A stretch of DNA of 38,754 bases. Source: Candidatus Nealsoniibacteriota bacterium. GTDB taxonomy: Bacteria; Patescibacteriota; Minisyncoccia; Minisyncoccales; PWPS01. Of this stretch, positions 19,672 to 36,826 are shown piece by piece. The stretch lies in the NCBI GenBank assembly GCA_003560665.1, contig PWKK01000030.1, positions 1 through 38,754 on the forward strand, written 5' to 3'. The position numbers and the translations under genes were made by a program. The notes under the pieces are model-generated. The model was not told the DNA's origin. It searched no databases and saw nothing but the letters and a program-made list of their open reading frames with translations. Position 1 is the stretch's first letter; every line of letters begins with the position of its first letter.

Positions 19672-19685
19672 TATAATAAATCTTT

Positions 19686-21449: not shown

Positions 21450-21465
21450 ACGTTTTAAAAAAAAT

Positions 21466-21855
21466 CTACTCTTCAAGTCTTCGAGCTTGATAATCAAAAT
21501 AAAAGTTTACAAGCAAGAGTATAAAAAGAGATGTTACCGCCCCTAAAATGAGGTTGAGCATAAATCTGTTTTCCTTTTCCGCTTCTATTAACGCCCCCTC
21601 CAATCCCTTCTCTCTCATTTCTAACTCCTCTTCTTTCTCGATTAACTGTTGCGCCAGCGTATTGTAGGGGTTGCTCGGAACCTCTACGCTGGTTCCCGAT
21701 GCCGCTCCGAGAGTTGCCGCAAAATACTTGGCAACATCCCCGGGATTAACACTAAAGTAATGCCACGAAACGAAAAGAAGAAAAACCAAAGATACCGTTA
21801 GACCCGTAATCCCTCCTCTCAAAAAAGTTTTAATTTTTTTTCTTCTGCAATTCAT
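21466..21855 (-). CDS. Small two-TM protein with external coiled coil
   Basis: I do not recognise a family. The 129 residues have a basic start (MNCRRKKIK), a membrane helix at about 14-32, a loop that includes a Glu-rich helical stretch LIEKEEELEMREKGLEGALI likely to form a coiled coil, and a second membrane helix at about 97-117 followed by a short charged tail. By the positive-inside rule both ends are cytoplasmic and the coiled coil is outside. It lies between the DUF916-like genes and the dockerin gene, same direction, which suggests an accessory or scaffold role in the surface complex. Confidence 0.65.
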   Translation of the reverse strand: MNCRRKKIKTFLRGGITGLTVSLVFLLFVSWHYFSVNPGDVAKYFAATLGAASGTSVEVPSNPYNTLAQQLIEKEEELEMREKGLEGALIEAEKENRFMLNLILGAVTSLFILLLVNFYFDYQARRLEE

Positions 21856-21883
21856 CTTTTTTGATTATACCAAAGAATTACAT

Positions 21884-22840
21884 TTAGTCCATATACTTTT
21901 GTTTGAAATAATCAGCAACGGTAATTATCAGTAAAAGGAAGAGAACCACTCCTAGAAGTGTAACAACTATATCGAGAGGAATTATCCAAAAATAGATGTC
22001 TTGATCTATCAATTGAACCGCCTCCTCTCCATACACCAAAGTCAGGGACGCCTTGTATCTTCCCGCCTCAAGGAACGAATCTCTTCCGTCCCATTGAAAG
22101 CTCCATCTTCTTCCGCTTTGAGGAAGAATGTTTCCAAACTCGGTGTTCCGGTTAACAAAAATAGTTTCAACTTCTTTGTTCCACTGATTGTAGATTTTTA
22201 TGGTTCCCCTGGGCTGAATATGCGTATTTCCCTCGTTTCGAAGAAAAAGATTAAACTCAACTTCAGGGCTCGTATAGAGGGTTCTTTTTGTCGAAAACTC
22301 CCGGAGAAACGCCTCTTCCGTTACATCTCCACGAACATTTAAAAGAATAAGTGAGCCAACCGAAGGGGATACTGCCAAGCTGGTTCCCGGAGAAAAGTCT
22401 TCCGGCATCATGATTGCCGCTGAAATAACCGCGTATTTTCCTCCCGGCCCGGCATACTCCGGGATATCGATTTCAACAGGAAGGACCTTGCTTTCGTTTG
22501 CAGGAATAAAGATTAAATCACGATTAACTTCAATCCACTGGCTAAGCAGAAAGTCCTTTCCTACGTCAATGCTTTTCTCTATCTCTCTTGTATCGATAAA
22601 CCGGACTCTCCCTTCTTCTCCTCCTCGAAAATCCCTTATAAAAACAGTGAAGTAGAGGTCTTTGTCGTTGCTGTTGAATATTTCCACGGAACCGGACCAG
22701 GTTTCTCCCGGAGCAATATTAATCTTTGTTAAGAGAGGAGTGATGGCAAGACTAACGTTTTTTTCCTCTTCTGCAAAAACAGGGGAAGAGATTGTCGTAA
22801 TAAAAAGAAAAAAGAGTAAAAAGAGTTTTAGTTTTTTCAT
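21884..22840 (-). CDS. DUF916-like (WxL-interacting) membrane-anchored surface protein 1
   Basis: The track ORF begins at 22990, but MKKLKLFLLFFLFITTISSPVFA at 22840 is a perfect signal peptide and its ATG overlaps the previous stop as ATGA, so I use that start (318 residues). Two Ig-like beta domains follow: the first has ITPLLTKINIAPGETWSGSV, the pattern of DUF916 in Firmicutes WxL-interacting proteins, and the second has FNLFLRNEGNTHIQPRGTI. A C-terminal membrane helix follows the motif YFWIIPLDIVV. The protein is probably anchored with both beta domains outside. In Firmicutes such proteins bind peptidoglycan and WxL proteins; whether that holds in CPR is unknown. Confidence 0.8.
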   Translation of the reverse strand: MKKLKLFLLFFLFITTISSPVFAEEEKNVSLAITPLLTKINIAPGETWSGSVEIFNSNDKDLYFTVFIRDFRGGEEGRVRFIDTREIEKSIDVGKDFLLSQWIEVNRDLIFIPANESKVLPVEIDIPEYAGPGGKYAVISAAIMMPEDFSPGTSLAVSPSVGSLILLNVRGDVTEEAFLREFSTKRTLYTSPEVEFNLFLRNEGNTHIQPRGTIKIYNQWNKEVETIFVNRNTEFGNILPQSGRRWSFQWDGRDSFLEAGRYKASLTLVYGEEAVQLIDQDIYFWIIPLDIVVTLLGVVLFLLLIITVADYFKQKYMD

Positions 22841-23781
22841 TTCTTGGAAGAAAGATCTAATGTTGTAACTGTGCTCCGGTAGACGGGAGCCTTTTTGTTC
22901 TTCTTTTTTCTTGAAAAAGAGAAAAGAAAGAAGATTAACAGAAACAACCCGACACCGGAAAAAATTAAGAATTCTCTGGGTATGATCCAAAAATAAATTG
23001 TATCTTGAATGTCTCTTCTCGCTTCTTCCCCGTATTCTCCTATCAAAACCGCCTTGTACTGACCAAAGCCACCCTTTGCATCCCAGCTGATTTCAAATGT
23101 TTCTTTTTTCCCCGCTTCAACAAACAATCCTTTTTCGTTAATCGGCAGAGAATCAAGCTCTTTTCCGTGCCTGCTTTTGTAGATAATAACGGATCCGTAC
23201 GGTTTTAACTCTCTGTTTCCGATATTTTCCACCATCAGGGAAAAGTCAACCGCCGAATCATAAAACGATTCTTTGTCGGAACGGAAGTTTATCAGTTGCA
23301 TTCTTTCGACTATGTCCTCTTTTACATCGATATTGATTAGTGTTTCAGGATAATTAAACCTCACTGCATTCCTCCTTGCTTCATCTTCAGTGCTTCCTCT
23401 GGCAAAAACGACAACGGCATAGTATTTTCCCGGCTCTGCATCGTTATCAATCCGAACGGTGAGTTGCAGCTCTTCTTCCTCTTCCGGGTTAATATCCATC
23501 CGACTCCGTCTAATATTAATCCAAGAAGACAAAAAAGATTCTTGCTCGAGAGGGTTTTTTTCGCGAAGAATTCTTCCTTCTTCCACAGAGACATCTTTTA
23601 CTAACGGATACAAACGCGTTCTTCTTTGTCCTTCGTTTTTAACGTTTATCGTAAAATCAAATCCGTCACGTACACTACCCTCTCCACTTATAACAGAGGG
23701 GTAGACAACAATTTCTGCCTCTCCTTTTCCGGGAAAAGAAAGAAAGAGGGCGAGAAAAATTAGAAAATAATATTTCTTCAT
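22837..23781 (-). CDS. DUF916-like membrane-anchored surface protein 2
   Basis: This second member of the triplet has 314 residues. A signal peptide (MKKYYFLIFLALFLSFPGKGEA) leads into an Ig-like domain with INVKNEGQRRTRLYPLVKDV. A second domain has FSLMVENIGNRELKPYGSV, and a membrane helix follows YFWIIPREFLIF. The cytoplasmic tail is basic (SRKKKNKKAPVYRS). It is more divergent than the other two in the first domain. It begins one base after the upstream gene's stop and overlaps the next by four bases, so the three are surely co-translated. Confidence 0.78.
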   Translation of the reverse strand: MKKYYFLIFLALFLSFPGKGEAEIVVYPSVISGEGSVRDGFDFTINVKNEGQRRTRLYPLVKDVSVEEGRILREKNPLEQESFLSSWINIRRSRMDINPEEEEELQLTVRIDNDAEPGKYYAVVVFARGSTEDEARRNAVRFNYPETLINIDVKEDIVERMQLINFRSDKESFYDSAVDFSLMVENIGNRELKPYGSVIIYKSRHGKELDSLPINEKGLFVEAGKKETFEISWDAKGGFGQYKAVLIGEYGEEARRDIQDTIYFWIIPREFLIFSGVGLFLLIFFLFSFSRKKKNKKAPVYRSTVTTLDLSSKK

Positions 23782-23782
23782 G

Positions 23783-24931
23783 CTATGCGAAAAATAAGAA
23801 AAACATCAAACCACCCGTTAAAACAACGGCAATTGCTATCGCGGCAAAAACGAGGAAAGAGCTTAGAGGTGAAGATGGTTCTTTTTCTTTTTTCCTCTTC
23901 TCCTCCCTGTTTTTTAGTACGGCTTTTTCTCTTGCTCCCAACTTCCCGGTATCTTCTTCTAGTCCTGCTTGTCGGAGTACTTCCCGTACGGCTTTGTCCT
24001 TATACCATTTGGTAACAAGAGTAATAATTATAATTAGAACAAGAAGACCTACTCCCGCCGGGATAACTACATCCCACGGTATTATCCAAAATGTTGTCTG
24101 TGCGGTAACGGTCCTGATACCCACCCCCGTATCACCACCCAAACCACCAAAACTTAAGACAAGAGTGGCGGTATACTTACCCAATCCAAAATCATCTTCC
24201 CACGTGTTTTCAAAGCGCCGAATAGAGTCCGGTAAGGCGTTCGCCCCGGCTTCATTTACGGGCAAAGCCGCTACCTGAGAGCCACGCATGCTCTCTATCT
24301 TGATTGTTCCAACGGGTTTAACGTGAACGTTGCCCAGATTCTCTACTCTTGTTGTAAAATTAACGACAAAAGGGTTTTCGTAAAAGTTGTAATCGGTGGT
24401 AAACTCTCTGATTCGTGCCTCGTAGTGTGCATCTCCTTTAACCTGAAAAAGAACCAAAACTCCCACCTGATGGGTAAGCGCAATCACGCTTCCTTCTCCC
24501 TCCTTTATTTCCGGAGCTTTAGGGCCGAAAACAACTGCTCCATAGTATCCTCCGGGTCCGACGTTTTGGGGAACACGAAAATTCACCTGTACTTGTTTTT
24601 TTTCTCGAGGCGCAAAAGTCATTCCTTCATCCGGTATGTCCACCCAACTACTTAAAAACGGTCCTTCTTGCGTCCCGATAGGAAGAAGCCTCACCGAACC
24701 TCTTTCTCCTCTTGGAGCAAAATCCATCACAAAAGTGTGAAAGGTTTGTACTTCATCGGAAGCGTTGGTGACGGTAATAAAGTTAGTTACTCTTTCTCCC
24801 GGCTCAACAACCTCTTCTATCCTGAAAGGGCTCGCCTCAACCACCGCATCTACCGTAGGTTTTTCCAAAAAACCGAAAGAAAATACCAATAGAAAAAAAG
24901 AGAAAAAAAGTATTTTTATTTTCATAATCAA
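23783..24931 (-). CDS. DUF916-like membrane-anchored surface protein 3
   Basis: This is the first gene of the triplet, with 382 residues. A signal peptide (about 1-29) is followed by a DUF916-like domain (SPFRIEEVVEPGERVTNFIT; VNFRVPQNVGPGGYYGAVVF). A second beta domain contains VENLGNVHVKPVGTIKI, and a membrane helix follows TFWIIPWDVVI. A 60-residue charged cytoplasmic region (KWYKDKAVREVLRQAGLEED onward) ends in another hydrophobic helix at the C-terminus. The extra helix distinguishes it from its two neighbours. It has a promoter at 24952-24979, just beyond the terminator of the WxL-like gene. Confidence 0.8.
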   Translation of the reverse strand: MIMKIKILFFSFFLLVFSFGFLEKPTVDAVVEASPFRIEEVVEPGERVTNFITVTNASDEVQTFHTFVMDFAPRGERGSVRLLPIGTQEGPFLSSWVDIPDEGMTFAPREKKQVQVNFRVPQNVGPGGYYGAVVFGPKAPEIKEGEGSVIALTHQVGVLVLFQVKGDAHYEARIREFTTDYNFYENPFVVNFTTRVENLGNVHVKPVGTIKIESMRGSQVAALPVNEAGANALPDSIRRFENTWEDDFGLGKYTATLVLSFGGLGGDTGVGIRTVTAQTTFWIIPWDVVIPAGVGLLVLIIIITLVTKWYKDKAVREVLRQAGLEEDTGKLGAREKAVLKNREEKRKKEKEPSSPLSSFLVFAAIAIAVVLTGGLMFFLFFA

Positions 24932-24951
24932 AACAAATTAAACTAATCTGT

Positions 24952-24979
24952 ATTTTACAGAAATTCCCATAAAATGCAA
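24952..24979 (-). promoter_or_regulatory. Promoter for the DUF916-like operon
   Basis: TTGCAT, a 16-bp spacer and TAAAAT lie on the minus strand. The -35 box abuts the hairpin of the preceding terminator, so termination and re-initiation are packed into about 65 bases. Confidence 0.5.
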
Positions 24980-25016
24980 AGAGCTTCTTTTGCCACAATC
25001 GGCTAAAAGAAGCTCT
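24980..25016 (-). terminator. Strong hairpin after the WxL-like gene
   Basis: AGAGCTTCTTTTGCC pairs with GGC(T)AAAAGAAGCTCT: 15 bp with one bulged base and a 6-base loop. On the minus strand it is followed by TTTGCATTTTA, a weak T-run. It should trim transcription after the WxL-like gene and leave the DUF916 genes at lower expression. Confidence 0.65.
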
Positions 25017-25037
25017 CTTTAACTCTCTCTTTAAAAA

Positions 25038-26096
25038 CTAGAATGTAGGAGTTGCTATATAGGTTAGTGTGTTGGTGTACTCACCTGCAGGCTGAAGATC
25101 ACTAATCTCTATCTGGTACCCAACACGAGTTGTTCCAGCGTGCAGTGTCTCTCCATCTGAGGGACCAACATGACACATAATCTCTTCGGGAGTGTCTCCA
25201 TCAAATCCAGCCCAAACATTACTACCAAAATATCCATCTGCTCCATCAAGCTCAAGACAGTTTTCGTCAACCTGAACATCTTCAGTGGTAAACCCGAAGT
25301 GTCCCCAAGTATCTGGATCAGCCAACTGGCCACCAGGACCCGCCCAAGTCGCTGCTGCACTTGTTGCTACTGGTGTGCCATCTAAGAAACTTTTAATGGT
25401 ATCTCCTCCCGGACTGGTTAAGTCCTGGTCCTGGAAAACGGTTACCGAGTAACCCTCAGAAGCGTTGGTTGATACTGTCAAATCCTGAGCGGCAGCCAAA
25501 GGTGTTTCCGTATCAAGAGTTCCAAACTCAATACTGGTAGCGGTAGTGGTTATATCAATATTTCTCTCACCGTGCAAATCATCTGCCTCTTCACCCACAC
25601 CCTCAACGGTAAAAGAAAGAAGAGCACTAACTCTTGCGGTTACCACTACCGGTTCAATGATAGCAAACATCGCGTTACCCCACTCTCCCGTATCAGCCTG
25701 AAGCTCAACAACATAAGTGTCGGCTTCTCCTTCTGTCGTTGTTTTCCCAGGATTTGTTACTGTGAAAGTAACAGTATCTGTTGCACTGAGATCTGTACAA
25801 GTATAAACCTCATTTGCAGTGTCTTCTGCACAACCCCCAGAATCTGTTATTGCACCACCATTGCTATTGAAATCTTCCTCAAAAGTAAACACTACTTCGC
25901 CTTCAAAAGCATCACCATCAAAGGGGTCTTGAAACTGGAAATCAAAAACGTACTCGACTCCCGTCGCATCTGGTGCCGAGTCGGAAATGGTAACTCTTGC
26001 ATAAGAATCGGTAGCCAATCCTTCAAAACCAACCATCGAAATCGTCATTGCAAGAACAAGTGACAAAACTAAAAATTTTCCTAAAGTCTTTTTCAT
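25038..26096 (-). CDS. WxL-like secreted surface protein
   Basis: The 352 residues open with a signal peptide (MKKTLGKFLVLSLVLAMTISM). They continue as acidic, Thr/Ser-rich beta sequence with almost no lysine after the signal, typical of S-layer-like or cell-wall proteins. The C-terminal half (about 165-352: VSALLSFTVEG, NASEGYSVTVFQDQDL, ending AGEYTNTLTYIATPTF) resembles WxL-type C-terminal domains in layout but has no literal pair of WxL motifs. The WxL assignment therefore rests largely on its DUF916-like neighbours. The related protein at 36980-37633 ends in the same way (DYTDTITVTATAG). Its own promoter, 5' leader hairpin and downstream terminator suggest strong, separate expression as a major surface protein. 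Confidence 0.68.
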   Translation of the reverse strand: MKKTLGKFLVLSLVLAMTISMVGFEGLATDSYARVTISDSAPDATGVEYVFDFQFQDPFDGDAFEGEVVFTFEEDFNSNGGAITDSGGCAEDTANEVYTCTDLSATDTVTFTVTNPGKTTTEGEADTYVVELQADTGEWGNAMFAIIEPVVVTARVSALLSFTVEGVGEEADDLHGERNIDITTTATSIEFGTLDTETPLAAAQDLTVSTNASEGYSVTVFQDQDLTSPGGDTIKSFLDGTPVATSAAATWAGPGGQLADPDTWGHFGFTTEDVQVDENCLELDGADGYFGSNVWAGFDGDTPEEIMCHVGPSDGETLHAGTTRVGYQIEISDLQPAGEYTNTLTYIATPTF

Positions 26097-26373: not shown

Positions 26374-27753
26374 GTGAAATCTATGAAAAAAACAAATAAA
26401 AACAGTAATCTTTTTCCTTTTTATGCGGGATTAGTTGCTTTTCTCTTCTTGTTTGCAACCTCTCTCTACTTTTTGGAAGAAAAATCGGTAGCGGCTCAAG
26501 AAGGTGCTTCTTTGAGAGGAGACAGCCCTTTTACAAAGCTTCTTACGGAACCCTATTTCAATATCAAGTCAAATGCGGGCATTGAAGGAACTCTTTCTGC
26601 GAGAGGAGCGGTAAGGGCCCCTGTCTTCGATATAGCTTCACAAGGATTTAGAGGAAGAGTTTACACGGCCGGACTTACCGAAGAAAGAAGATATTTTTTC
26701 CCTGATCTTTCAGGAGAAATATGCCTAACTGCCGGTAACTGTGAGTTTGCTCCCACCGGTATTCCCAACAGACTGGCCAAGTTTACCGAAGAAGGACTCA
26801 CTGCTTCTTCTGTCACCGACCTTGATACAACCACCGGTGTCGGAATAGCAAACCCGGCATACCGCCTTCATGTAGGGGGAAGGATTCAAGCCGAAGGAGA
26901 TATTTGTACGGATTTGGGTGGAGGATTTTGCTTAAGTTCAGTGGGAGAAGGACAAGAGTCTTTCTCTGAATCAATCGTAGACGGAGAGGGTAGTCTTTCC
27001 TACATTCCTCTGTGGAGAAACGACCGAAATTTAGGTGATTCGATAATCCGCCAAAGCGAAGGAAACATCGGTATCGGAACCTCCCCGGTAAACAAGTTGG
27101 ATGTTGCAGGAACAGTGAGAATGCTCGGCTTTCGACTACCGGTCAATCCTACGGACGGATACGGTTTGATGACCGACGATCGTGGTTTTGGAACCTGGAA
27201 ACCGGTTCTCACTCCCGAAGGAACAAGAGCCGATGTTGCCGAAAGATTTGAAATCAACCCTCTTTGCAAAGAAAAAGGAAACTGTCCCAAGCCGGGAGAT
27301 GTTGTTTCTATAACAAACAAAGGATTTATCGAAAAATCAACTGTTCCTTACGACTCGAAATTAGTCGGTATCATTTCCACCGACCCGGAACTAACTCTTA
27401 ACACAGCTCTGGATTTAAAACTATCAAGACCGGTTGCACTGATTGGAAGAGTTCCCACAAAAGTGTCTCTTGAAAACGGAGATGTGTCCGCTGGAGATTT
27501 TCTAACATCTTCATCCATTCCCGGCGTAGCGATGAAAGCAGTCGCTTCGGGAAGAGTTGTCGGTATCGCGCTAGAGTCACTGTCTTCCAGAGAAACATCC
27601 TCGGGAATAGGAGAAATTAACGTATTAATAAACCTTCATTATAACGAAAAAAACTCTTCTGAAGAGTCTTTAAAGATAACCGACAAAGAAACCGGAAAAA
27701 AATACTGTCTTGAAATAAGGGGAGGAGAAATGGTCAAGTCTCTTTGTGAATAA
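26374..27753 (+). CDS. Tail-fibre-like surface protein with a C-terminal beta domain shared with the c-like ATPase protein
   Basis: This is the only convincing plus-strand gene. The 459 residues start with a membrane anchor/signal (about 15-35; a GTG with AAGG seven bases upstream, or the ATG at 26383). Repeats of the phage tail-fibre/adhesin kind follow (GVGIANPAYRLHVGGRIQAEG, NIGIGTSPVNKLDVAGTVRM). The C-terminal beta domain (about 300-430) contains KLVGIISTDPE, VALIGRVPTKV, GDVSAGDFLTSSSIPGVAMKA and GRVVGIALES. This domain resembles the auto-processing or chaperone-like domains at the ends of fibre proteins. The same pattern forms the ectodomain of the c-like protein at 33182-33982. It converges on the epsilon gene with four bases between stop codons. 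Extracellular fibre or adhesin is the best guess. Confidence 0.7.
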   Translation: MKSMKKTNKNSNLFPFYAGLVAFLFLFATSLYFLEEKSVAAQEGASLRGDSPFTKLLTEPYFNIKSNAGIEGTLSARGAVRAPVFDIASQGFRGRVYTAGLTEERRYFFPDLSGEICLTAGNCEFAPTGIPNRLAKFTEEGLTASSVTDLDTTTGVGIANPAYRLHVGGRIQAEGDICTDLGGGFCLSSVGEGQESFSESIVDGEGSLSYIPLWRNDRNLGDSIIRQSEGNIGIGTSPVNKLDVAGTVRMLGFRLPVNPTDGYGLMTDDRGFGTWKPVLTPEGTRADVAERFEINPLCKEKGNCPKPGDVVSITNKGFIEKSTVPYDSKLVGIISTDPELTLNTALDLKLSRPVALIGRVPTKVSLENGDVSAGDFLTSSSIPGVAMKAVASGRVVGIALESLSSRETSSGIGEINVLINLHYNEKNSSEESLKITDKETGKKYCLEIRGGEMVKSLCE

Positions 27754-27757
27754 AAAG

Positions 27758-28021
27758 CTACAGTCCTAAAAATATATCTACCTTGTTCTCACGAACCTCC
27801 AGCACCCCTCTCTCAAACTGATAACTCTTTTCTTCTTTGTTTTCGTTGTAAATAACAACGTTACCGAAAATAAGGGTGATAAAGTTGGTGTGATAAGGAA
27901 GAACGTCAAACTTTCCCACTCCGTTTTCCGAAGAAACGGCAACCGCTTTGCTTTTAAATATATCTTTTTCCAAGACTGCGGAAAAAAATACTCTTACCTG
28001 AAGAAGTTCTTTGTTTTCCAT
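27758..28021 (-). CDS. atpC: F1-type ATPase epsilon subunit, N-terminal domain only
   Basis: Epsilon sits at the foot of the rotor and contacts gamma and the c-ring. The 87 residues cover just the beta-sandwich domain (SSENGVGKFDVLPYHTNFITLI; FERGVLEVRENKVDIFLGL), ending where the usual two-helix inhibitory domain would begin (normal length about 130-140). Loss of that domain removes epsilon-type inhibition of ATP hydrolysis. It starts three bases after the beta stop and is the last gene of the string. Confidence 0.85.
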   Translation of the reverse strand: MENKELLQVRVFFSAVLEKDIFKSKAVAVSSENGVGKFDVLPYHTNFITLIFGNVVIYNENKEEKSYQFERGVLEVRENKVDIFLGL

Positions 28022-28024
28022 AAA

Positions 28025-29422
28025 CTACTTCTCTAATTCGTTTATACCTCCGATATACAAAAATTTTTCCGGAAGAACATCATCTAAATCTCCTTTCAAA
28101 ATAGCTTCCACACCTTGAACCGTTTCTTCCACCTTTACATACTTTCCGGGTTTTCCGGTTTGATTTTCAACAACAGAAAAGGTTTGGGTCATAAAGTTAA
28201 GTATCTTTTGTGCCCGGTGATAAATAGTCCTGTTTTCAACGGAAAGCTCCGCTTCACCGACAATGGAAACTATCTGCTCTAAGTTTTTGTGCTGTTCTAA
28301 CACTTTCTTCGCCTCTAGAAAAAGATCGTGATGTTTTTGCCCGACAATATTGGGTGTAACCGAGGTTGAAGAAGAAGCAAGAAAGTCTATCGCCGGATAA
28401 CGTCCTTCTTGATAGATGTCACGAGAAAGAACGGCGTTAGAGTCAAAATAGGGCAGTATCGCCTGAACGCCGGCATCTGTTATGTCGTCTGCAGGAACAT
28501 AAACCGCCTGAACGCTGGTTATTCCTCCACTTTTAGTGGAGACCAGTCGTTCTTCAAGATTCCCTATCTCGCTTTTTAGTGTTGACTGGTATCCTCCTTC
28601 GGAAGGAATATCACCGAGCATCATTGACAGTTCGTTACCTGCTTGCAGGAATCGGTAAATGTTATCGATAAAGACAAATGTGTCTTGCCCGAGAGAGTCT
28701 CGAAAATACTCGGCGATGGTTGCTGTAACGTAGCCCACATTCGCTCTAACCGAAGCTGCTTCGTCCATCTGCCCGTAAACCAAAACCGCCGACGGCAAAA
28801 CTCCCACCTCTTTTAGTGTTTCGTACAACTCGTGCCCTTCTCTAATTCTCTCTCCCAGTCCGCCAAAGACCATTAAGCTTTTCTGATGAAAAACAACATT
28901 GTGCATCAGCTCTATCAAGAGAATCGTCTTCCCTACTCCCGCTCCTCCGAAAAGACCTATCTCTTCTCCTTTCACCAGCGGGGTGAAAAAATCAATCGCC
29001 TTTATTCCTGTTTGGACAACGCTTTCTCCCGAGACAACCTCTTCATAGGCCAGTTTTCTGTAAATCGGCCACTTTTCTTTCGTTTCTACCGGTAAGCTTC
29101 CGTCACGTGGGTTTCCGAAAACATCAACTACTTTTCCCAAAAGCTCTTTTCCGACGGGAACCTTTAACGGCTCTTTTGTTCTTAAAACTTTCGCCCCTCG
29201 AAATATCTTTTTAAATCCCGAAAGAACAACACAGGAACAGATAAATGTTTGATCAACAGAGACACGATGAACCTCAAGCAAAACATCTTCATTGTCCTTC
29301 AATACCAAAATCTCTCTCAGGAAAGGAGATTTTTCATACATCTCAATCTCCACCACTTCTCCGTGAATAGCACGAATATATCCTTCGCCACTCCCTGATA
29401 ATTTTTCTTCATTTACTTCCAT
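28025..29422 (-). CDS. atpD: F1-type ATPase beta subunit
   Basis: This is the catalytic subunit. The 465 residues carry Walker A GGAGVGKT at 159-166, the catalytic-glutamate segment GLGERIREGHELY, Walker B TFVFIDNIYRF and VQAVYVPADDITD, so nucleotide hydrolysis should be intact. Divergent points are visible. The DELSEED lever that pushes gamma reads AELSVEN, losing several acidic residues. YPAVDPLDSTSR is replaced by YPAIDFLASSST, and LVYGQMNEPPGAR by LVYGQMDEAASVR. These match neither typical bacterial ATP synthase nor V-type subunits exactly and suggest a specialised lineage. The gene overlaps gamma by ten bases. Confidence 0.93.
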   Translation of the reverse strand: MEVNEEKLSGSGEGYIRAIHGEVVEIEMYEKSPFLREILVLKDNEDVLLEVHRVSVDQTFICSCVVLSGFKKIFRGAKVLRTKEPLKVPVGKELLGKVVDVFGNPRDGSLPVETKEKWPIYRKLAYEEVVSGESVVQTGIKAIDFFTPLVKGEEIGLFGGAGVGKTILLIELMHNVVFHQKSLMVFGGLGERIREGHELYETLKEVGVLPSAVLVYGQMDEAASVRANVGYVTATIAEYFRDSLGQDTFVFIDNIYRFLQAGNELSMMLGDIPSEGGYQSTLKSEIGNLEERLVSTKSGGITSVQAVYVPADDITDAGVQAILPYFDSNAVLSRDIYQEGRYPAIDFLASSSTSVTPNIVGQKHHDLFLEAKKVLEQHKNLEQIVSIVGEAELSVENRTIYHRAQKILNFMTQTFSVVENQTGKPGKYVKVEETVQGVEAILKGDLDDVLPEKFLYIGGINELEK

Positions 29423-30252
29423 AGGTGATACGGAATTACAATTTCTAATTGTTTTTTATCAACTATTCTTTTGTTTATTTTATTCCACGTACTTTCAAGT
29501 TTTTTTCTCCTTTCTTTTGCGTTTTCTCCTGCACGGTGCATTGCAACCATCCTTGTTGCGTGCCTCGACAAACGGTGCTCTAAAAAGGCTTGGTTGAAAA
29601 AAGCGGCAATTAATTCTTTTTCAAAAAACTCTAAAACTGCTTCCGGTGAGGGTTCAAAAAGATAGCTGGGAATACTTTCATCATCTTTCGGATTTTTAGC
29701 TTCCGCGGAAATATTGGTTGCCCCCACCTCTTGGGACAGTATTGTTTTAAATCTTCCGTGAAAAGCAATAATCGTATCGTAATTCTTGATAAAATCAATA
29801 ACTTTCTTTAACTCTTCTTCGGTGGGATTTTCGTCATCTAGGTTAAAGTAGGAAAATTTCGTATCCGGATTACTCTTTTCAACAAGATTCTTGCCCACTT
29901 CTCCTATTATCACTAAATCACTTTCTTTGTTTTTTAAAAAAGCAAAAACACTGCGCCAAACATCCAAAATCAAGGATCCGTAAAATCTTGAATTGGCAGA
30001 GAAAAAAACAGAGACTGTTTTTTCTTTTTTCTGGGCAACAACTTCCTCATCTTTTCCTTCTTTTTCGGCAAGATAGGACTTTTTTGCAATAGAGCACATC
30101 CTTGAAAGTTCTTCGATAAAATCTCTGTTTTTCAGTGCTCTTCCCCGAATATCGTTCATCTCTTTTTGTGAAACCTCACGGTAAGTCGCGGTAATTACTC
30201 CAATAGCAGAGACCGCTTTTAACTTTTCTTTAATTTTGCGAAAGTTTGCCAC
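29413..30252 (-). CDS. atpG: F1-type ATPase gamma subunit
   Basis: Gamma is the rotor shaft inside the alpha3beta3 head. The 279 residues keep the two terminal helices that form the coiled coil (MANFRKIKEKLKAVSAIGVITATYREV at the start; LSRHATRMVAMHRAGENAKERR near the end, with the conserved ARMVAM pattern) and a divergent central Rossmann-like part. The extreme C-terminus ends IVIPYHLWK instead of the usual ITEIVSGAAAL. Its position between alpha and beta is standard. Confidence 0.9.
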   Translation of the reverse strand: MANFRKIKEKLKAVSAIGVITATYREVSQKEMNDIRGRALKNRDFIEELSRMCSIAKKSYLAEKEGKDEEVVAQKKEKTVSVFFSANSRFYGSLILDVWRSVFAFLKNKESDLVIIGEVGKNLVEKSNPDTKFSYFNLDDENPTEEELKKVIDFIKNYDTIIAFHGRFKTILSQEVGATNISAEAKNPKDDESIPSYLFEPSPEAVLEFFEKELIAAFFNQAFLEHRLSRHATRMVAMHRAGENAKERRKKLESTWNKINKRIVDKKQLEIVIPYHLWK

Positions 30253-30271
30253 TATTTACAGCTTCTTAAGT

Positions 30272-31741
30272 TTATAAAAACCTTTCTATCCTCGGTGCTA
30301 GCTCCTCACAAAAGTCTTTTAACTCTTCTGCGTTTTTCATTCTTTTTATCTTTTCTTCAATTTCAAAAAAAAGCTCTCCTCGAACATTTTCAAATATTTT
30401 TTCAATTTCTTTTTTCATCGAACCGGGTGCAGAATCTTTCCAAAATCCCGAAAAAAGAAGTCCGAAAAGAAGAAACTGCATTGTCCGCGGAATTATCGTC
30501 TTAATGTCCTGATTTAAAAGTATTTCCATTTTTTTCCCGAAATCGAGTGCTTTCTGCTTTTCTTTGCTGAGCTCCGCTCCAAATTGTGCAACCTCCAGTG
30601 TTTTCCGATATTCTATCAACCTTTCTTCTATTTTTCCAACTATCTCTTTGTCTAAAGAATCTCTCGTCTGGTTTCCTACCCGCGATACCGAGAGAAAAGA
30701 ATTGACTGCCGGATAACGCCCTCTTTTTAATTCGTTGATATCGAAAAAAATGTGCCCGTCGGTCATCGAGAGAAGGTTTGTTTGAATGAATCCGGAAATA
30801 TCATTTTCCAGTGTTTCTGCAACCGGAAGCATCGTGATACTTGCAACTTTGTCGTGAGAGATTTTAACATTTCCCGCTCTTTCAATAATCGACGCATGAA
30901 TGTGGAAAATATCTCCCGGGTAAGCCTCTCTTCCCGGAGGGTTTTTCAACAAAAGCGATATCTCCCGGTAAGCTTTTGCGTGATTGCTAAGATCATCGAA
31001 AATAACAAAAACATCGTTTCCTTTATCGCGAAAATACTCGGCCACCGTTATGCCTGCAAACGGAGCGATGTAGTGGAGGGTAGAGGGATCGTTAGAAGGG
31101 GTGATCATCATCACCACTTTATCAAACACACCCTTTTCTCGAAGATAATCCTCCACTCCTTTCAACGCCGAGCTTTCTTTTCCGATTCCGACATAGACAC
31201 AAATCACTCCTTTCTTTACCTGATTGCACATTGTCTGAAGAAGAAAAGTTGTTTTTCCCGTTTTCGCATCACCGACAACCATCTCTCTTTGACCGTGACC
31301 GAGAGGAGAAAGCAAGTCAACAATCATCACCCCTGTTTCAAAGGGGCGACTCACAACTTCTCTTTTCGTAATTCCGGGAGCATCTCTCTCGAGAGGAAGA
31401 GGCGTTTTCTCTCCCGAGACAGGACCCACTCCGTCTATCGGTAGGCAAAGTGGATTAACTATCCTTCCTAAAAGATTATCGGAGATCTCGATACGGAAAA
31501 GATTATTTGTTCTTGAAACTCTTTCTCCTCCTCTTATCTCTCCCATTTCAAACATTAAAACCTCCGCCTTGCCTCTATCCATTCCAAAAACAACTCCTCT
31601 TTCTCCGTTCTCCGCAATAATCGCTTCTCCTTTTTTCAAAGAAGGAAGCCCGGAAACATAAATAATAGGGTTACTCGAGTGGATAACATAACCGACCTCT
31701 CCGGTTTTTTCCAAGTATTTTTTAAATTTTTCTTTACTCAT
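30272..31741 (-). CDS. atpA: F1-type ATPase alpha subunit
   Basis: This is the regulatory partner of beta, supplying the arginine finger. The 489 residues contain the P-loop GDAKTGKT (157-164; bacterial consensus GDRQTGKT), the Walker B region VFVIFDDLSNHAKAYRE, PPGREAYPGD and the arginine-finger segment LSVSRVG. The N-terminal helix that normally binds delta is shortened: only about 14 residues precede the first beta strand. The C-terminal domain is full. It overlaps delta by eight bases and precedes gamma by 20. Confidence 0.93.
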   Translation of the reverse strand: MSKEKFKKYLEKTGEVGYVIHSSNPIIYVSGLPSLKKGEAIIAENGERGVVFGMDRGKAEVLMFEMGEIRGGERVSRTNNLFRIEISDNLLGRIVNPLCLPIDGVGPVSGEKTPLPLERDAPGITKREVVSRPFETGVMIVDLLSPLGHGQREMVVGDAKTGKTTFLLQTMCNQVKKGVICVYVGIGKESSALKGVEDYLREKGVFDKVVMMITPSNDPSTLHYIAPFAGITVAEYFRDKGNDVFVIFDDLSNHAKAYREISLLLKNPPGREAYPGDIFHIHASIIERAGNVKISHDKVASITMLPVAETLENDISGFIQTNLLSMTDGHIFFDINELKRGRYPAVNSFLSVSRVGNQTRDSLDKEIVGKIEERLIEYRKTLEVAQFGAELSKEKQKALDFGKKMEILLNQDIKTIIPRTMQFLLFGLLFSGFWKDSAPGSMKKEIEKIFENVRGELFFEIEEKIKRMKNAEELKDFCEELAPRIERFL

Positions 31742-32219
31742 AAGAAGATTGCTTAGCGGCTCTTATCTCCATCTTGTCCATTTTTTTCGCAAGAGAAAAA
31801 TCCGCCCATCTTCCTCTATATTCAACAACCGCTCCTCCGACAACTTCCCTGTTAAATCTTAAATCAATAACTGTTTTCTGCTCAAGCTCTCTTTGTAACC
31901 AGTCGCTAATCTTCTCGACTGCTTCTTCGTCGGGACGAAAGGCAACCTCCAGTCTTATCTGAGGCAAAAAAAAGATGTGCTTTTTTAGCAACTCAAGAAA
32001 GAATGTTTGTTGATCAACGTCTTCGCTCTCCTTCTCTTCGTTAAACTGTAAAAGAATCTCCTTTAATTCGCCTGTTATCTTTCCCTCTATTTTTTCCGCA
32101 AGCGGTTTGTTGACATCACTGAGAACCGCTTCCGTCGCCAAATCAATCTCTTTTAAATAAAAAATTAGGTCGCTCTTTGTCTTTATTTTTTTCTCAAGTG
32201 TAATAAAAAACTTCCGCAT
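31734..32219 (-). CDS. atpH: F1-type ATPase delta (OSCP) subunit
   Basis: Delta joins the peripheral stalk to the top of the alpha subunits. The 161 residues are weakly conserved. An N-terminal helical part is followed by the C-terminal pattern VIDLRFNREVVGGAVVEYRG, equivalent to the family's conserved ending (DPSLIGGxxVRxGD). The assignment also rests on the position between b and alpha. The length is about 15-20 residues short of typical. Confidence 0.8.
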   Translation of the reverse strand: MRKFFITLEKKIKTKSDLIFYLKEIDLATEAVLSDVNKPLAEKIEGKITGELKEILLQFNEEKESEDVDQQTFFLELLKKHIFFLPQIRLEVAFRPDEEAVEKISDWLQRELEQKTVIDLRFNREVVGGAVVEYRGRWADFSLAKKMDKMEIRAAKQSSYE

Positions 32220-32227
32220 AGTATTTG

Positions 32228-33151
32228 TTAGTCCTTTCCTTCTACTCGAAAAAAGCTTTCTTCCTTAGCTCTTTTTAGGGCATCTATCACCAAATCCTCA
32301 TGAGTTGAAGGGTCGATGGTCTTCCCGACAACCTGCTTGGTAGTATCTTTTATTATCTGATAGATTTTTTGGTCTATTTCCGCCAGTTTTTTTCTTTTGT
32401 ATCTTTCAATCTCTCTCTCCGCCTCTTCGTTTTTATCTCTTACGGCCTCTTCCAGTGGCTTATAAATTTGGCTTATTTTTTCATCCATTTCTGCAAGCAG
32501 CTCTTCTGACTTCTTTCGACTTTCAGTTATTAAAAAGTTACTCACCTCTTTGTTTTCTTCACGGTGTTTTGCAAACTCTTCCTCGAACATCTGAGTTAAC
32601 TGAGCTTTAATCTTCTCGTTTTCTTGAGATATTTCCTGGAAAAGACTGCTGTACATTTCTTTAACTTCTCGATCGGCACTTTCAATCTGCTTCCTGTAGT
32701 CTCCTAAAATCTCACTTGATGTTTTTCGAACTTCTTCTCGAAAGTCAACAACAGTTCTTTTTACCTCTTCTTCTAAAACTTTTTCCAGTCTCTCTTGAAA
32801 ATCATTTGATGTTTTCAGGAAAAACCCATCGTCTACAAAGCCCTTTTCTTCCTGCCTTTCGTTGCGGTCTTGATTTACCGGACTAACTTTTTCTTCTTCT
32901 CTTTCTTCGTTTTCATCTTCTTGTGATTCGGGAACAGCTTCCGTGAATTCTTCTTTTTTCGTTTCCTGGTCTTTTTCCACTGATTCTCCGCTCTTTTTTT
33001 CAAAAACAACCCTTCTTGCATTAGGTTTTAGGCCATCCCTTGCTTTAGAGTCGGGACCTTCATAGCTTTTTATCAGAAAAAACATTCTAATAGCCACTCC
33101 CACTACGGCTAAAAAAACAATTAAAAGAATCGATGGAATTATGTAATTCAT
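32228..33151 (-). CDS. atpF: Elongated F-type ATPase b-like stalk protein
   Basis: This protein has one N-terminal membrane helix (about 4-27) and a very long charged helix ending in VVGKTIDPSTHEDLVIDALKRAK, which matches the delta-binding end of b subunits. At 307 residues it is twice normal length. The extra is an acidic, presumably disordered linker (about 50-110, rich in Glu/Asp/Lys) followed by an extended coiled coil (about 115-280). A longer or more flexible stalk would be needed if F1 is held farther from the membrane than usual. It is 30 bases after the c-like gene and eight before delta. Confidence 0.82.
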   Translation of the reverse strand: MNYIIPSILLIVFLAVVGVAIRMFFLIKSYEGPDSKARDGLKPNARRVVFEKKSGESVEKDQETKKEEFTEAVPESQEDENEEREEEKVSPVNQDRNERQEEKGFVDDGFFLKTSNDFQERLEKVLEEEVKRTVVDFREEVRKTSSEILGDYRKQIESADREVKEMYSSLFQEISQENEKIKAQLTQMFEEEFAKHREENKEVSNFLITESRKKSEELLAEMDEKISQIYKPLEEAVRDKNEEAEREIERYKRKKLAEIDQKIYQIIKDTTKQVVGKTIDPSTHEDLVIDALKRAKEESFFRVEGKD

Positions 33152-33181
33152 AATAAATTCACTATTCTGTGTTATTTCATC

Positions 33182-33982
33182 TTATAGTAAAATAACAAAC
33201 AAGGCAAGAGCGATTCCCGACAAAGTGAGGATTAAAATACCGATTAAGTTTAAGATCATTGCAAATCGAATACTTCCCTTTGCGAGAGGATTTCTACTAA
33301 TTCCCTTTATACCCTCTTTCAGAGTTCTCGAGAAAGAGTAGAGACCGAAAACAAAGCTACCGGTGACAAAAAGTGCCGCCAGGAGGTATCGTAAAATTTG
33401 AGGAGCATCTCTTTCCATGGTCCGAATAATCCTTCCGACTGCTTCCCAAAAAGTTATTTCTTGCCACGGCTCTTCATCTTCAATGGTTGTTTCGCGCGGG
33501 TCAACGAAAACTTCAATCAATCCTTCTTCTCCGTCAAGCTCTTCCATCGCTCTTCCGATAACAAAACCGGGATAAAGCGCTTTTTGGCCTACTCCCGGCT
33601 TGTTTGAGGAGGTGATAAAATCTCCTTTCTCTACTTTTTCGCGGCTCCCGTCAACTTTTACAAGAGCAACTCCGGAGGTTACTATCGGTAGACTATTTTC
33701 AGAGTCACGACCGACAACAACTATCGGATTAAAGGCCACTACACCGAAAATATTGTTGTCGTAGGGAGAATTAGCCCTTCTCAACTCTCCTCCATCTTCG
33801 GAAATAATGTCACCTTCCGCTGCGTTTCTGTCAGCTACTTCCAGCTGAACGGCCGTATCGGGAAGAAAAAAAGTTTCTTGGGCAAAAAGATGCCCGCATC
33901 CGGCAAAAAGGAAAACGGAAGAAATAAAGATTAGAAGCATCTTTCGGGAAATTTTTTTGAAAAAAGTAACAAAAAATCTCAT
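33182..33982 (-). CDS. Ectodomain protein with a c-subunit-like membrane hairpin, no ion-binding carboxylate
   Basis: The gene occupies the atpE position. Its 266 residues start with a signal sequence (about 12-36, possibly with a lipobox-like FAGC). An external beta domain follows (about 50-165; IFGVVAFNPIVVVGR, KGDFITSSNKPGVGQKAL, FVIGRAMEEL) that matches the C-terminal domain of the plus-strand fibre gene. Two membrane helices come last, joined by the polar loop EGIKGISRNPLAKG. ISRNPLAKGSIR aligns with the c-subunit loop (GIARNPEAAGKIR). In the second helix, however, the position of the essential Glu/Asp is Leu (NLIGILILTLSGIALALF contains no acidic residue), and the GxGxG packing motif of helix 1 is mostly lost. 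Topology would put the loop inside, facing F1, and the beta domain outside. Ion translocation seems excluded. Confidence 0.75.
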   Translation of the reverse strand: MRFFVTFFKKISRKMLLIFISSVFLFAGCGHLFAQETFFLPDTAVQLEVADRNAAEGDIISEDGGELRRANSPYDNNIFGVVAFNPIVVVGRDSENSLPIVTSGVALVKVDGSREKVEKGDFITSSNKPGVGQKALYPGFVIGRAMEELDGEEGLIEVFVDPRETTIEDEEPWQEITFWEAVGRIIRTMERDAPQILRYLLAALFVTGSFVFGLYSFSRTLKEGIKGISRNPLAKGSIRFAMILNLIGILILTLSGIALALFVILL

Positions 33983-34006: not shown

Positions 34007-34312
34007 TTAAACCTCTTCTTTTTTATCGTCAATATTTTTTATTTTCTCTCGGATAACTTTTTCCGAGCTATTCAACGCCTCTTGCAGCTCATCACGAATT
34101 TTTCTTTCTTCTTCGTTAAGGCCGGGTTCTCCGTCAAGCATTTCAATCTGTTTTTCAATTTTTCTCTGTAAATTAAAAAATGCTTTATTGACAACTTGGT
34201 CTGTTTTTTGTTGCTGCTCTTTTATTTTTTTTCGCCACTGAAAGACCTGATACCAAGTGTAGGTAAGAACAATGGCGGCTACAGCAACGATTATGTGTGT
34301 TATATCTATCAT
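34007..34312 (-). CDS. Small membrane-anchored coiled-coil protein
   Basis: No family is recognised. The 101 residues comprise an N-terminal membrane helix (about 5-25), a basic stretch and a cytoplasmic helical region. The segment LQRKIEKQIEMLDGEPGLNE plus EERKIRDELQEALNSSE closely parallels LEKKIKEQINYLEEKTDLSR plus GEKRVLEGLKGALDTVHE in the tail of the next gene upstream, so the two share a cytoplasmic helical-hairpin module. Its place directly before the c-like gene, where atpB or atpI would be, suggests a role at the membrane base of the F1-like complex, perhaps as a stator. That role is inference. Confidence 0.7.
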   Translation of the reverse strand: MIDITHIIVAVAAIVLTYTWYQVFQWRKKIKEQQQKTDQVVNKAFFNLQRKIEKQIEMLDGEPGLNEEERKIRDELQEALNSSEKVIREKIKNIDDKKEEV

Positions 34313-34317
34313 ATATT

Positions 34318-35862
34318 TTATACTGCTGTCTTGTTTTCTCCTCCCTCATGAACAGTATCTAAAGCCCCTTTTAATCCTTCTAAAACTCTTTTTTCACCCC
34401 TACTAAGGTCTGTCTTTTCTTCTAAATAATTAATCTGCTCTTTTATCTTCTTTTCGAGTGTTTCGTAAGCCTCTTTCTCTTCTTCACTACTGCTCTCCTC
34501 GAGCATCATTTGTTTTTCTTTTTTCTTTTTAATTTTACGATGGAAATAAGCGATAAGGCCAATGCCAACTAAGATTAAGAAAAGCAGCAGAATAATAATA
34601 ATGCTCATCATTCCTTCGGACTTTATCTCTAAAAAAAACTCTTCCGTGGTGCTTCTAACTACTCCTTCTTCGTCTTCAACTTCAAGCCAAACCAGATACT
34701 CTCCTTTGGGAAAGTGGTTTTCAAAAGTGAAATTACCTTCATCGTCAGTCACTACCTCTTTGAGAAACAGTGTCCCTTCTCCTTCTTTTCTGAAAGTCTC
34801 TCCTTCCAGACCGCCGTCTACGTTCCAAGACTCCCTAAAACCTCTCAACAGTATATTGATTTTTACCGTCGAACGGGGAAGCGTCTGCCCGATAATGGTT
34901 AGCGGTGTTCCTTCAGAGATTGAAGAAGATATCTCTCGAATCTCCAAAGGTGCGGGCACAACAGAAAAGTTTTCTGAGGCGGAATTGTGGTTATCATCTT
35001 CATCGAAAGCTCTTACCTCCAACAGATAATCTCCCGGAGGAAGAGAAGACACTCGATATCTTTCGTCTTCTAGATCATCAGGAAAAATGGTATCGTGCAA
35101 CTCGTCATTTAAAAATATTTCGTAGTATTTTGTTTCCGGTAAATCATCGCTTTTGTTTATAACAAAAACGGGCGTAGGATTTGCAGGGTCGCCCTCATTG
35201 TCAATTTCAACAAAAAAACCTTCTCCTTCAACAATATTTTCTTCCGAAAAATCATCTTCGAGAGTTGGTGGATCACCTCCCGGGGGCGCTGAAGGTGGAG
35301 TTGTGGGAGTGGAAGAGGCTTCCTTTATCGTGTAAGATGCTCTTCCCAAGTCGGCATCTAGCTTCTCTCCCGCCCTAAGAACCGTACCCTTCGTAAAGGA
35401 CAAAGAAGCGGTACCGGTTCTTATCGCTCTAAAGTTAACTGTAATGATATTGCCCTCAGTTCCTCTTAATCCTCCGGGAATCCCTCCGCTGAAAGTAATG
35501 CTGCCTCCAGAGTGTCTTGGTCTTCCTCCCGGAGACCAAGCCTCAACAACCGATGCTGCCTCCGAAATGCTTTCTACCATCAACAAGTTATTGTCGAAAC
35601 TTAAAATAGCGTTTACCGCATCCCCGCCTCCTCTTAACAAAACATTAACCGAAAAAACACTTCTTTCTTCGTGTGTTCCCGAGGAGGGGCTCAGAGAAAG
35701 AGATGCATCGGCGGTTACAAAGAAAGGAAGAAAGAGAGATAAAAAGAAAAAAGCAAAAAAACAAGTTTTTTTTGCCAACAAACGAAAAAGAAAATTATCT
35801 AAAAAATTCTCCTTTTTATTGTAACCGCCATTTCTCGTTTTTTTCTTAAGAAAACATTTCAT
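34318..35862 (-). CDS. Cohesin-domain surface protein with cytoplasmic coiled-coil tail
   Basis: I use the ATG at 35862 (514 residues); the track start at 36006 lies inside the previous gene. A long basic N-terminus leads to a signal helix (about 33-50). The cohesin-like domain follows (about 52-185: LSLSPSSGTHEERSVFSVNV; SITFSGGIPGGLRGTEGNII; ITVNFRAIRTG), then a Pro-rich linker, two or more Ig-like domains (GDYLLEVRAFDEDDN; TPLTIIGQTLPRSTVKINI) and a membrane helix (about 418-438). The tail of about 75 cytoplasmic residues contains the helical hairpin module shared with the protein at 34007-34312. A cohesin on the outside and an F1-neighbour module on the inside make this a candidate link between surface and ATPase. 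Confidence 0.75.
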   Translation of the reverse strand: MKCFLKKKTRNGGYNKKENFLDNFLFRLLAKKTCFFAFFFLSLFLPFFVTADASLSLSPSSGTHEERSVFSVNVLLRGGGDAVNAILSFDNNLLMVESISEAASVVEAWSPGGRPRHSGGSITFSGGIPGGLRGTEGNIITVNFRAIRTGTASLSFTKGTVLRAGEKLDADLGRASYTIKEASSTPTTPPSAPPGGDPPTLEDDFSEENIVEGEGFFVEIDNEGDPANPTPVFVINKSDDLPETKYYEIFLNDELHDTIFPDDLEDERYRVSSLPPGDYLLEVRAFDEDDNHNSASENFSVVPAPLEIREISSSISEGTPLTIIGQTLPRSTVKINILLRGFRESWNVDGGLEGETFRKEGEGTLFLKEVVTDDEGNFTFENHFPKGEYLVWLEVEDEEGVVRSTTEEFFLEIKSEGMMSIIIILLLFLILVGIGLIAYFHRKIKKKKEKQMMLEESSSEEEKEAYETLEKKIKEQINYLEEKTDLSRGEKRVLEGLKGALDTVHEGGENKTAV

Positions 35863-35905: not shown

Positions 35906-36826
35906 TTAACTCTTTTCCGACAATCCGGCTTCACCCTTAACCAGAATTCTAAAAACAGTAGCCCATCTCTTGCGTGTAAGAAAGAAGAACAAAACCACCA
36001 AAGCAATCAACAGCCCCGCTTTCCACGGGAAAGCAAAAAAAGTAACTGATTGAGGTTCAATATCATTGTCCAGCAGTTCTCCGTAGACACCGTTTATGGT
36101 GGCGGTGTACATCCCACCCCAAGCCCATCCGACATTCCAATCCGCCTCTATTTTTCTCACAGCTCCGGGCAGAACATTTCTTTTTTCTATCGGGACAACA
36201 GCAACATCCCCTCCGAAGATGTTCCTGACTGTGATATTTGCGTTAGGTATCAGATGAATGGTTCCGGTGTTTTCAAAACGAGTTTCAAAAGTTACGGGCC
36301 CGTGTTCGTAGTAGTTTCGCGAAGTGTCAAATCCAACAACAGAAAGATCTTCTTTCATTTCTCCGGGAACAGTCAAAAGAACCAGTGAGGCAATGCGGTG
36401 GACAATGCCCACTCCCGTTCCTTCCACTCTGCCGGGAGGCGTTCCGGCAATCAATCCAGCATAATGTCCTCCGGGCTCGGCATTTTCCGGAACATTGATA
36501 GTAAAGCGAACCGTTTTCTCTTCTCGAGGACCCAAAACAAACTCTTCCGGCTCAAAGCTCACCCACCGAGAAATAGCCAAAACATCAAGCTCTTCATCGG
36601 CTCCTTGAAGAATCACTCTTCCCTCTTCTCCCTCGGGAAACATATCTTCTACCTCCATTCTTACGGTCGTATCTTCTTCATAGGATGGGTTGAGTACTCT
36701 TATCGTTTCACCGGTGCTTCCCCCTCTTTGTGCTGTAAGCTCAAAAGTGAGCGGAGTAACGGCAATCCTCCTTCCTCCAGCTTGACCAAGGCAAAAAGCG
36801 GGAACCAAAAGAATGAGAGTTCCCAC
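35906..36826 (-). CDS. DUF916-like membrane-anchored surface protein 4
   Basis: The 306 residues carry a DUF916-like first domain (IAVTPLTFELTAQRGGSTGE; FTINVPENAEPGGHYAGLIA), a second beta domain with FENTGTIHLIPNANITVRN, and a membrane helix after FFAFPWKAG, with a basic tail. It is closest in layout to protein 3 of the other locus. The start is uncertain: the track uses a GTG that leaves a short signal (GTLILLVPAFCLGQA); upstream in-frame codons back to an ATT would give a fuller basic signal region. It is the first gene of the string that runs into the F1-like genes, separated from the cohesin gene by 43 bases. Confidence 0.78.
   Translation of the reverse strand: MGTLILLVPAFCLGQAGGRRIAVTPLTFELTAQRGGSTGETIRVLNPSYEEDTTVRMEVEDMFPEGEEGRVILQGADEELDVLAISRWVSFEPEEFVLGPREEKTVRFTINVPENAEPGGHYAGLIAGTPPGRVEGTGVGIVHRIASLVLLTVPGEMKEDLSVVGFDTSRNYYEHGPVTFETRFENTGTIHLIPNANITVRNIFGGDVAVVPIEKRNVLPGAVRKIEADWNVGWAWGGMYTATINGVYGELLDNDIEPQSVTFFAFPWKAGLLIALVVLFFFLTRKRWATVFRILVKGEAGLSEKS

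Follow-up and report, generated by a model that had tools for sequence, protein, structure and literature searches.

A predicted cytoplasmic hairpin tail shared by a cohesin-type surface protein and a small membrane protein beside an F1-like operon in Patescibacteria

Introduction

Two described systems come closest to the locus considered here. In mycoplasmas, F1-like X0 ATPases of types 2 and 3 comprise alpha-, beta-, gamma- and epsilon-like proteins, have no a subunit, and are encoded with membrane and surface proteins; three of their seven proteins are described as being without similarity to known proteins (Beven 2012, PMC3369863; PMC12994834). Such an ATPase is needed for a surface protease system: it is required for the surface MIB-MIP system and cross-links with it (PMC12994834), which gives a precedent for an ATPase serving a surface system. 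The second parallel is with non-cellulosomal cohesin-dockerin systems (PF00963/PF00404), which the locus resembles in two respects: a membrane-anchored scaffold bears a cohesin-like domain, and there is a dockerin type I protein, whose gene belongs to the same operon in relatives and lies at 19686-21497 in the window (the whole stretch of DNA analysed, a 38.7 kb contig). We found no paper on cohesin or dockerin in Parcubacteria, and, within the open literature searched, none describing F1-like ATPases in CPR; the latter two terms occur together only in a motility review, where they stand apart.

The locus differs from both systems. Unlike the mycoplasma ATPases, the machine encoded here has a c-like hairpin protein, a b-like stalk and an OSCP-like delta subunit. 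Unlike the known cohesin-dockerin systems, the cohesin protein continues after its C-terminal transmembrane (TM) helix into a conserved cytoplasmic hairpin tail, and free-standing tail proteins exist as well. Membership of this hairpin module in the ATPase, by comparison with the X0 machines, is not evident.

The gene run

The window belongs to a genome of 679 kb with an estimated completeness of 100% (G000). The closest named relatives at the locus are the Candidatus Nealsonbacteria MAGs B1Sed10_182, T1Sed10_186 and CSSed10_83, whose names suggest that they come from the soda-lake sediment survey of PMC6146748. A single strand carries the cohesin, small protein, c-like, b, delta, alpha, gamma, beta and epsilon genes, ending at epsilon (27758); the intergenic gaps are at most 30 nt, and otherwise the genes overlap shortly. 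The features are as follows.

35906..36826, minus strand: WxLIP-like membrane-anchored surface protein, upstream in the run (weak Pfam WxLIP_PGBD match, below cut-off)
34318..35862, minus strand: cohesin-type surface protein, 514 aa (ORF; 100.9 bits against the N-terminal cohesin profile of homologues)
34552..34608, minus strand: TM helix of the cohesin protein, aa 419-437 (hydropathy peak 3.24)
34345..34476, minus strand: hairpin module in the cohesin tail, aa 463-506, shortened (hhalign; hmmsearch 48.3 bits)
34007..34312, minus strand: small membrane protein, 101 aa, with N-terminal TM helix and full-length hairpin (ORF; module profile 1.8e-33; AlphaFold2)
34058..34189, minus strand: hairpin module in the small protein, aa 42-85, gapless against the cohesin tail (hhalign)
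33182..33982, minus strand: c-like subunit (alignment; AlphaFold2 model; structural matches)
32228..33151, minus strand: b-like stalk protein with charged juxtamembrane insert (position; alignment with homologues)
31734..32219, minus strand: delta/OSCP-like subunit (Pfam OSCP)
30272..31741, minus strand: alpha-like subunit (Pfam PF00006; NCBIfam below cut-off)
29413..30252, minus strand: gamma subunit (Pfam PF00231)
28025..29422, minus strand: beta-like subunit (Pfam PF00006; atpD 461.8 bits against a cut-off of 462.85)
27758..28021, minus strand: epsilon-like protein, N-terminal domain only, 87 aa (NCBIfam ATP_synt_epsi, E 2.8e-8)

Both module genes lie on the minus strand. The cohesin gene ends at 34318, the small protein occupies 34312-34007 and the c-like gene starts at 33982, leaving gaps of 5 and 24 nt, so that the module genes directly precede the c-like and b genes, as the first-pass annotation had described. 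The span that it had given to the shared feature, 34007-35862, is too wide: 35862 is the ATG of the cohesin ORF, and the shared region itself covers only ~34010-34303 and 34321-34608. The WxLIP-like protein is of a type that recurs beside module-bearing cohesins. A scan for promoters and terminators gave counts no higher than the shuffle level.

The cohesin protein comprises a signal peptide, a cohesin-like domain, Ig-like domains, a C-terminal TM helix and the cytoplasmic tail. Its identity as a cohesin holds through its relatives but not by direct match: it has no Pfam Cohesin (PF00963) hit at E 0.1, whereas it scores 100.9 bits against an N-terminal profile made from 22 homologues, and a homologue passes Pfam Cohesin with 33.4 bits. 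When four module-bearing long proteins were scanned, two passed Pfam Cohesin and two Big_13. In relatives, the canonical run has the order secreted protein, WxLIP-like protein, dockerin protein, short cohesin and long cohesin with tail. Across the 20 loci read, 18 dockerin genes were found upstream of the module protein, and the loci without one lie at or near contig ends. The canonical operons in these loci contain no F1 genes, and the genes downstream of them vary between loci. In the window, a 603-aa protein (19686-21497) is Dockerin_1 by Pfam. It belongs to a second surface gene run (18706-26096), which has a secreted protein, three WxLIP-like proteins, the dockerin type I protein and a short cohesin-like membrane protein (18706-19671). 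This run and the F1 side together look like a canonical cohesin operon split in two. Elsewhere in the same genome, type IV pilus-like genes (PilB/PilC-like, pseudopilins) adjoin the gene of a third cohesin-like protein, whose hairpin tail is truncated (contig 11, locus L039, 5322-6416).

The F1-like operon proper (27758-33982) has genes for c-like, b, delta, alpha, gamma, beta and epsilon-N proteins. Neither a match to an a subunit (PF00119) nor a second alpha/beta pair was found anywhere in the genome; alpha, beta, gamma and epsilon without an a subunit, as assigned by Pfam and NCBIfam, are the marks of an F1-like X0 ATPase. The c-like protein has a signal peptide, an ectodomain and a c-type TM hairpin with an RNPLAK loop. 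In its AlphaFold2 model, residues ~190-266 match F-type c subunits (VIA-align, Z about 11 over 70-80 residues), with which they share a two-helix hairpin and a cytoplasmic RNP loop; residues 42-161 match the C-terminal domain of phage phi29 gp12 (Z 13.9) and phage head decoration proteins. The protein differs from F-type c subunits in its large secreted N-terminal domain, in the lack of an a subunit to go with it, and in having no acidic residue at the ion-binding position of helix 2 among aligned homologues. The operon looks like an ATP-driven rotor that would move no ions. Its relatives are found in Nealsonbacteria, Woesebacteria, Daviesbacteria, Gottesmanbacteria and Curtissbacteria, and more diverged ones in Saccharibacteria. 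The c-like ectodomain (window 33500-33860) recurs in giant CPR surface proteins and in a 459-aa protein whose gene lies beyond epsilon in divergent orientation (26374-27753). In G001 and G003, the operon holds genes for a response regulator and a histidine kinase between its alpha and gamma genes (L035 9576-11361 and L037 7028-8814); in G019, these two genes come after epsilon.

Homology of the two tails

The first-pass annotation had noticed the likeness in short peptides, KKIKEQINYLEE (34417-34452) and GEKRVLEGLKGALD (34357-34398) in the cohesin protein, and RKIEKQIEMLDG (34130-34165) and EERKIRDELQEALN (34070-34111) in the 101-aa protein, all of which stand where it had placed them. The bare pair of tails gives a BLOSUM62 local score of 71, which is reached by 6 of 20,000 composition shuffles and by 30 of 20,000 rotations that keep the hydrophobic/charge pattern; BLASTP of the same pair yields an E value of 0.036 only. 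Taken alone, this similarity would be only suggestive, and the homology becomes decisive because profiles of relatives match where the bare pair is insufficient. With hhalign, the alignment of two small proteins to two cohesin tails is significant (prob 96, E 3.8e-9) and spans 44 gapless columns. A 27-row module profile, from which the F1-linked cohesin tails were left out, aligns to those tails with prob 97.8 and E 8.4e-13.

The window cohesin tail scores 48.3 bits against the 27-row profile, compared with a maximum of 13.3 across 5,000 shuffles. The top unrelated protein in the loci examined, a b-like coiled coil, reaches 15.6 bits. The genome-wide search that the first-pass annotation had suggested finds the module in three places only at a threshold of 1e-3, namely, the small protein (1.8e-33), the cohesin tail (2e-12) and the cohesin-like protein of contig 11, which is 365 aa long (5e-8), and no unrelated protein of the genome matches. 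Sequence comparison thus confirms that the small protein and the cohesin tail are homologous, and that the two adjacent genes carry the same inward-facing hairpin. The shuffles and the own-genome search rule out that the similarity arose from chance or composition. The possibility that the module is also hidden in the b-like or delta subunits was considered too, and b-like proteins are at background (at most 15.6 bits).

Form and spread of the tail

The module consists of a TM helix, a basic stretch, a helix, an LDxKPGLS-type turn and a second helix, and both window proteins fit this description. The cytoplasmic hairpin that follows the TM helix is about 70 residues long. Its register and length are fixed, and the LDxKPGLS turn and a KEIKDIEKELE-type motif, which forms the extreme C-terminus of the module, are conserved. 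This end is altered in the small protein (EKIKNIDDKKEEV) and missing from the window cohesin tail. AlphaFold2 gives the small protein two helices, 4-61 and 67-100, in one hairpin (pLDDT 85); the model thus predicts a membrane helix continuing into a cytoplasmic hairpin. Solved structures searched with the hairpin fold returned only generic helical hairpins with E values above 1, and the tail matches no Pfam or NCBIfam family above cut-off.

By profile search, the module is present in 63 of the 247 genomes of the order and in 25 of the 379 sampled across the phylum. The matches are mostly at the C-terminus of long proteins, typically of 480-620 aa. In this Patescibacteria order, cohesin surface proteins of about 570 residues usually end in the module. 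To a large extent the module is thereby what the first-pass annotation had said would speak against its proposal of docking on the ATPase, something generic found on many membrane proteins. In every pair compared, the tail is better conserved than the ectodomain (for example, 78 vs 59%, and 69 vs 44% in the F1-linked clade), which argues for a specific job.

Could the hairpin be a generic coiled coil, basic to acidic and close to the membrane, that has no specific partner and has become similar in the two proteins by convergence? PDB sequences do match the module profile weakly, designed coiled coils at 2.5e-4 and apolipoprotein E at 0.03, and the best of the unrelated proteins is, as mentioned, itself a coiled coil. 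However, a generic coiled coil is not expected to keep a fixed register and length, a conserved turn and a conserved end, nor to evolve more slowly than the ectodomain to which it is attached. The gap between 48 bits and the 13.3 of the shuffles, and the lack of any other membrane protein matching at 1e-3, likewise tell against convergence. This reading appears largely refuted by the sequences, and we regard it as highly improbable.

Relation to the F1-like ATPase

The gene order cohesin-small protein-c-like-b-delta-alpha-gamma-beta-epsilon is kept in four genomes, those of the window, G080, G193 and G197, whose cohesin ectodomains are about 40-60% identical. The first-pass annotation had proposed a common docking site for the two hairpins on the F1-like ATPase, either the b stalk or F1, which would couple ATP hydrolysis mechanically to the cohesin outside. 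The tight one-strand run with its order maintained in three relatives is in favor of this proposal, as is the mycoplasma X0 precedent (PMC12994834). The b-like proteins of the four linked genomes have a charged insert, tens of residues long, next to the TM helix, and those of the five unlinked ones lack it, although it could be a salt adaptation.

The wider distribution of the module does not follow that of the ATPase. Fifty-six of the 63 module genomes of the order have no F1-like operon. Of the module genomes without an F1-like cluster, 25 were tested for PF00006, and 17 of them have no rotary ATPase alpha/beta gene of any kind; these 17 include a one-contig genome and several that are 97-100% complete. 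F1 is therefore not the general partner of the module, and as a universal partner it is ruled out by these genomes. Conversely, full-length c-like genes are present in 9 of the 247 genomes, and the module adjoins the F1-like operon in four of the nine; the other five clusters (G001, G003, G006, G019, G186) are without an adjacent module gene. Among GTDB genomes, 37 of 40 c-like loci have no module within the flanks examined, some of which are short, and the three that do are the same three relatives.

The genomes in which module and operon are linked form one clade. A beta tree unites the four linked loci (100/100), and for this reason the linkage most simply arose once. G197 is placed in another family and has an estimated contamination of 5%, and its contig may have been transferred or misbinned. 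At the level of whole genomes, module and c-like genes co-occur in 7 of 9 cases, compared with 63 of 247 overall (hypergeometric 0.0012); without the linked clade, co-occurrence is 3 of 5 (0.09). The tail is not a dedicated adaptor to the neighboring ATPase, because it is widespread on cohesin proteins, mostly in genomes without a rotary ATPase. Nor is the similarity of the tails by itself evidence for a linkage between ATPase and cohesin. With other F1-like clusters lacking the module and the linkage being one event, docking on F1 or the b stalk, as first proposed, is not borne out, and we consider it unlikely. The sequences point neither way on a lineage-specific coupling of cohesin and F1 within the linked clade.

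Free-standing copies

Apart from the F1-linked small proteins (window, G080, G193 and G197), the tail occurs on its own in several genomes. In G136, a copy without a large ectodomain lies directly behind a tail-bearing cohesin gene, and in G013, G028 and G068 free-standing copies lie among unrelated or housekeeping genes. Free hairpin proteins of about 104 aa are encoded at L146 (6814-7128), L147 (7857-8168) and L148 (9184-9498). Their neighbors are housekeeping genes, with cohesin and F1 genes distant; those of L147 and L148 sit between rRNA-methyltransferase-like and EF-P-like genes. In a tree of the module, the F1-linked cohesin tails come together in a single long-stemmed clade (100/99). 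The small proteins are placed, weakly supported, among the canonical tails, and the copy of G136 joins its neighboring cohesin (92/78). These placements, together with the copies in G136, G013, G028 and G068, suggest that free-standing copies probably arose more than once.

A small protein that consists of exactly a TM helix and a tail, and lies directly behind a cohesin gene as in G136, might be taken for the leftover C-terminus of a second cohesin, split off or pseudogenised and without function. Against such decay, the protein is intact in four species at 41-78% identity, its hairpin is more conserved than its TM helix, and the free-standing copies elsewhere are intact. Moreover, in the F1-linked clade it is the cohesin tail that is shorter and has lost the last segment, while the small protein has kept this segment and with it the full canonical tail. 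The sequences thus disfavor a functionless remnant, and we hold it to be the most improbable of the readings considered.

Function of the tail

The explanation we prefer, with confidence a little better than even, is that the module serves a surface scaffold as a tail for assembly or anchoring, and that this tail was duplicated and split and, secondarily, came to be co-expressed with the F1-like machine. Hairpins would either pair with one another in the membrane or grip a common cytoplasmic anchor. Cohesin scaffolds, which would hold dockerin-bearing proteins outside, would thereby be clustered and held in place. The trees and the lengths suggest that two tails took different courses in the soda-lake Nealsonbacteria lineage: a second copy, which has no ectodomain, would have retained its full length, and the one on the neighboring cohesin would have turned short and divergent. 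The small protein may then serve the cohesin anchor as a spacer or as a partner in assembly. The set as a whole would have been placed before the F1-like operon and is probably co-expressed with its genes. The similarity can be explained without any direct docking on F1 or b. Two observations sit less easily with it. The free copies far from cohesin genes (G013, G028, G068) indicate that the tail can act without a neighboring cohesin, and the conserved order of cohesin, small protein and c-like genes in four diverged genomes suggests a functional tie to the F1-like machine, which the assembly-tail explanation treats as co-expression only.

The second branch of this explanation can also stand alone. 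The hairpin would then dock on some cytoplasmic partner common to the order and distinct from F1, for example, a cytoskeletal, division or secretion protein, and so anchor the scaffold from inside. The strong conservation of the tail, its lack of dependence on F1 and the free-standing copies far from cohesin genes are what such a partner would predict. No candidate co-varying with the module was seen among the loci examined, where the downstream genes differ, and we regard this as a possible but not a probable alternative. A bolder proposal concerns the linked clade only: the free hairpin protein and the short-tailed cohesin would have joined an F1-like rotary machine that translocates no ions. 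The hairpins would brace the b-like stalk, with its charged insert beside the membrane, against the outer cohesin scaffold, and ATP hydrolysis would move a c-ring carrying phage-spike-like domains on the cell surface. We consider this quite unlikely.

Implications

The analysis defines an unnamed cytoplasmic tail family that is common to cohesin surface proteins across one Patescibacteria order, and indicates that a cohesin tail can exist as a free copy in the guise of a small orphan membrane protein. It also guards the literature against a wrong step, namely, taking the similarity alone as evidence for a linkage between ATPase and cohesin. The more surprising object in the window, and the stronger novelty, is the F1-like operon, widespread in Patescibacteria, with its carboxylate-less c-ring protein and the phage-spike-like ectodomain of that protein; a carboxylate-less rotor with a phage-type ectodomain lies outside the question of the tail module. 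The tail family itself offers a handle on the surface organisation of ultra-small cells.
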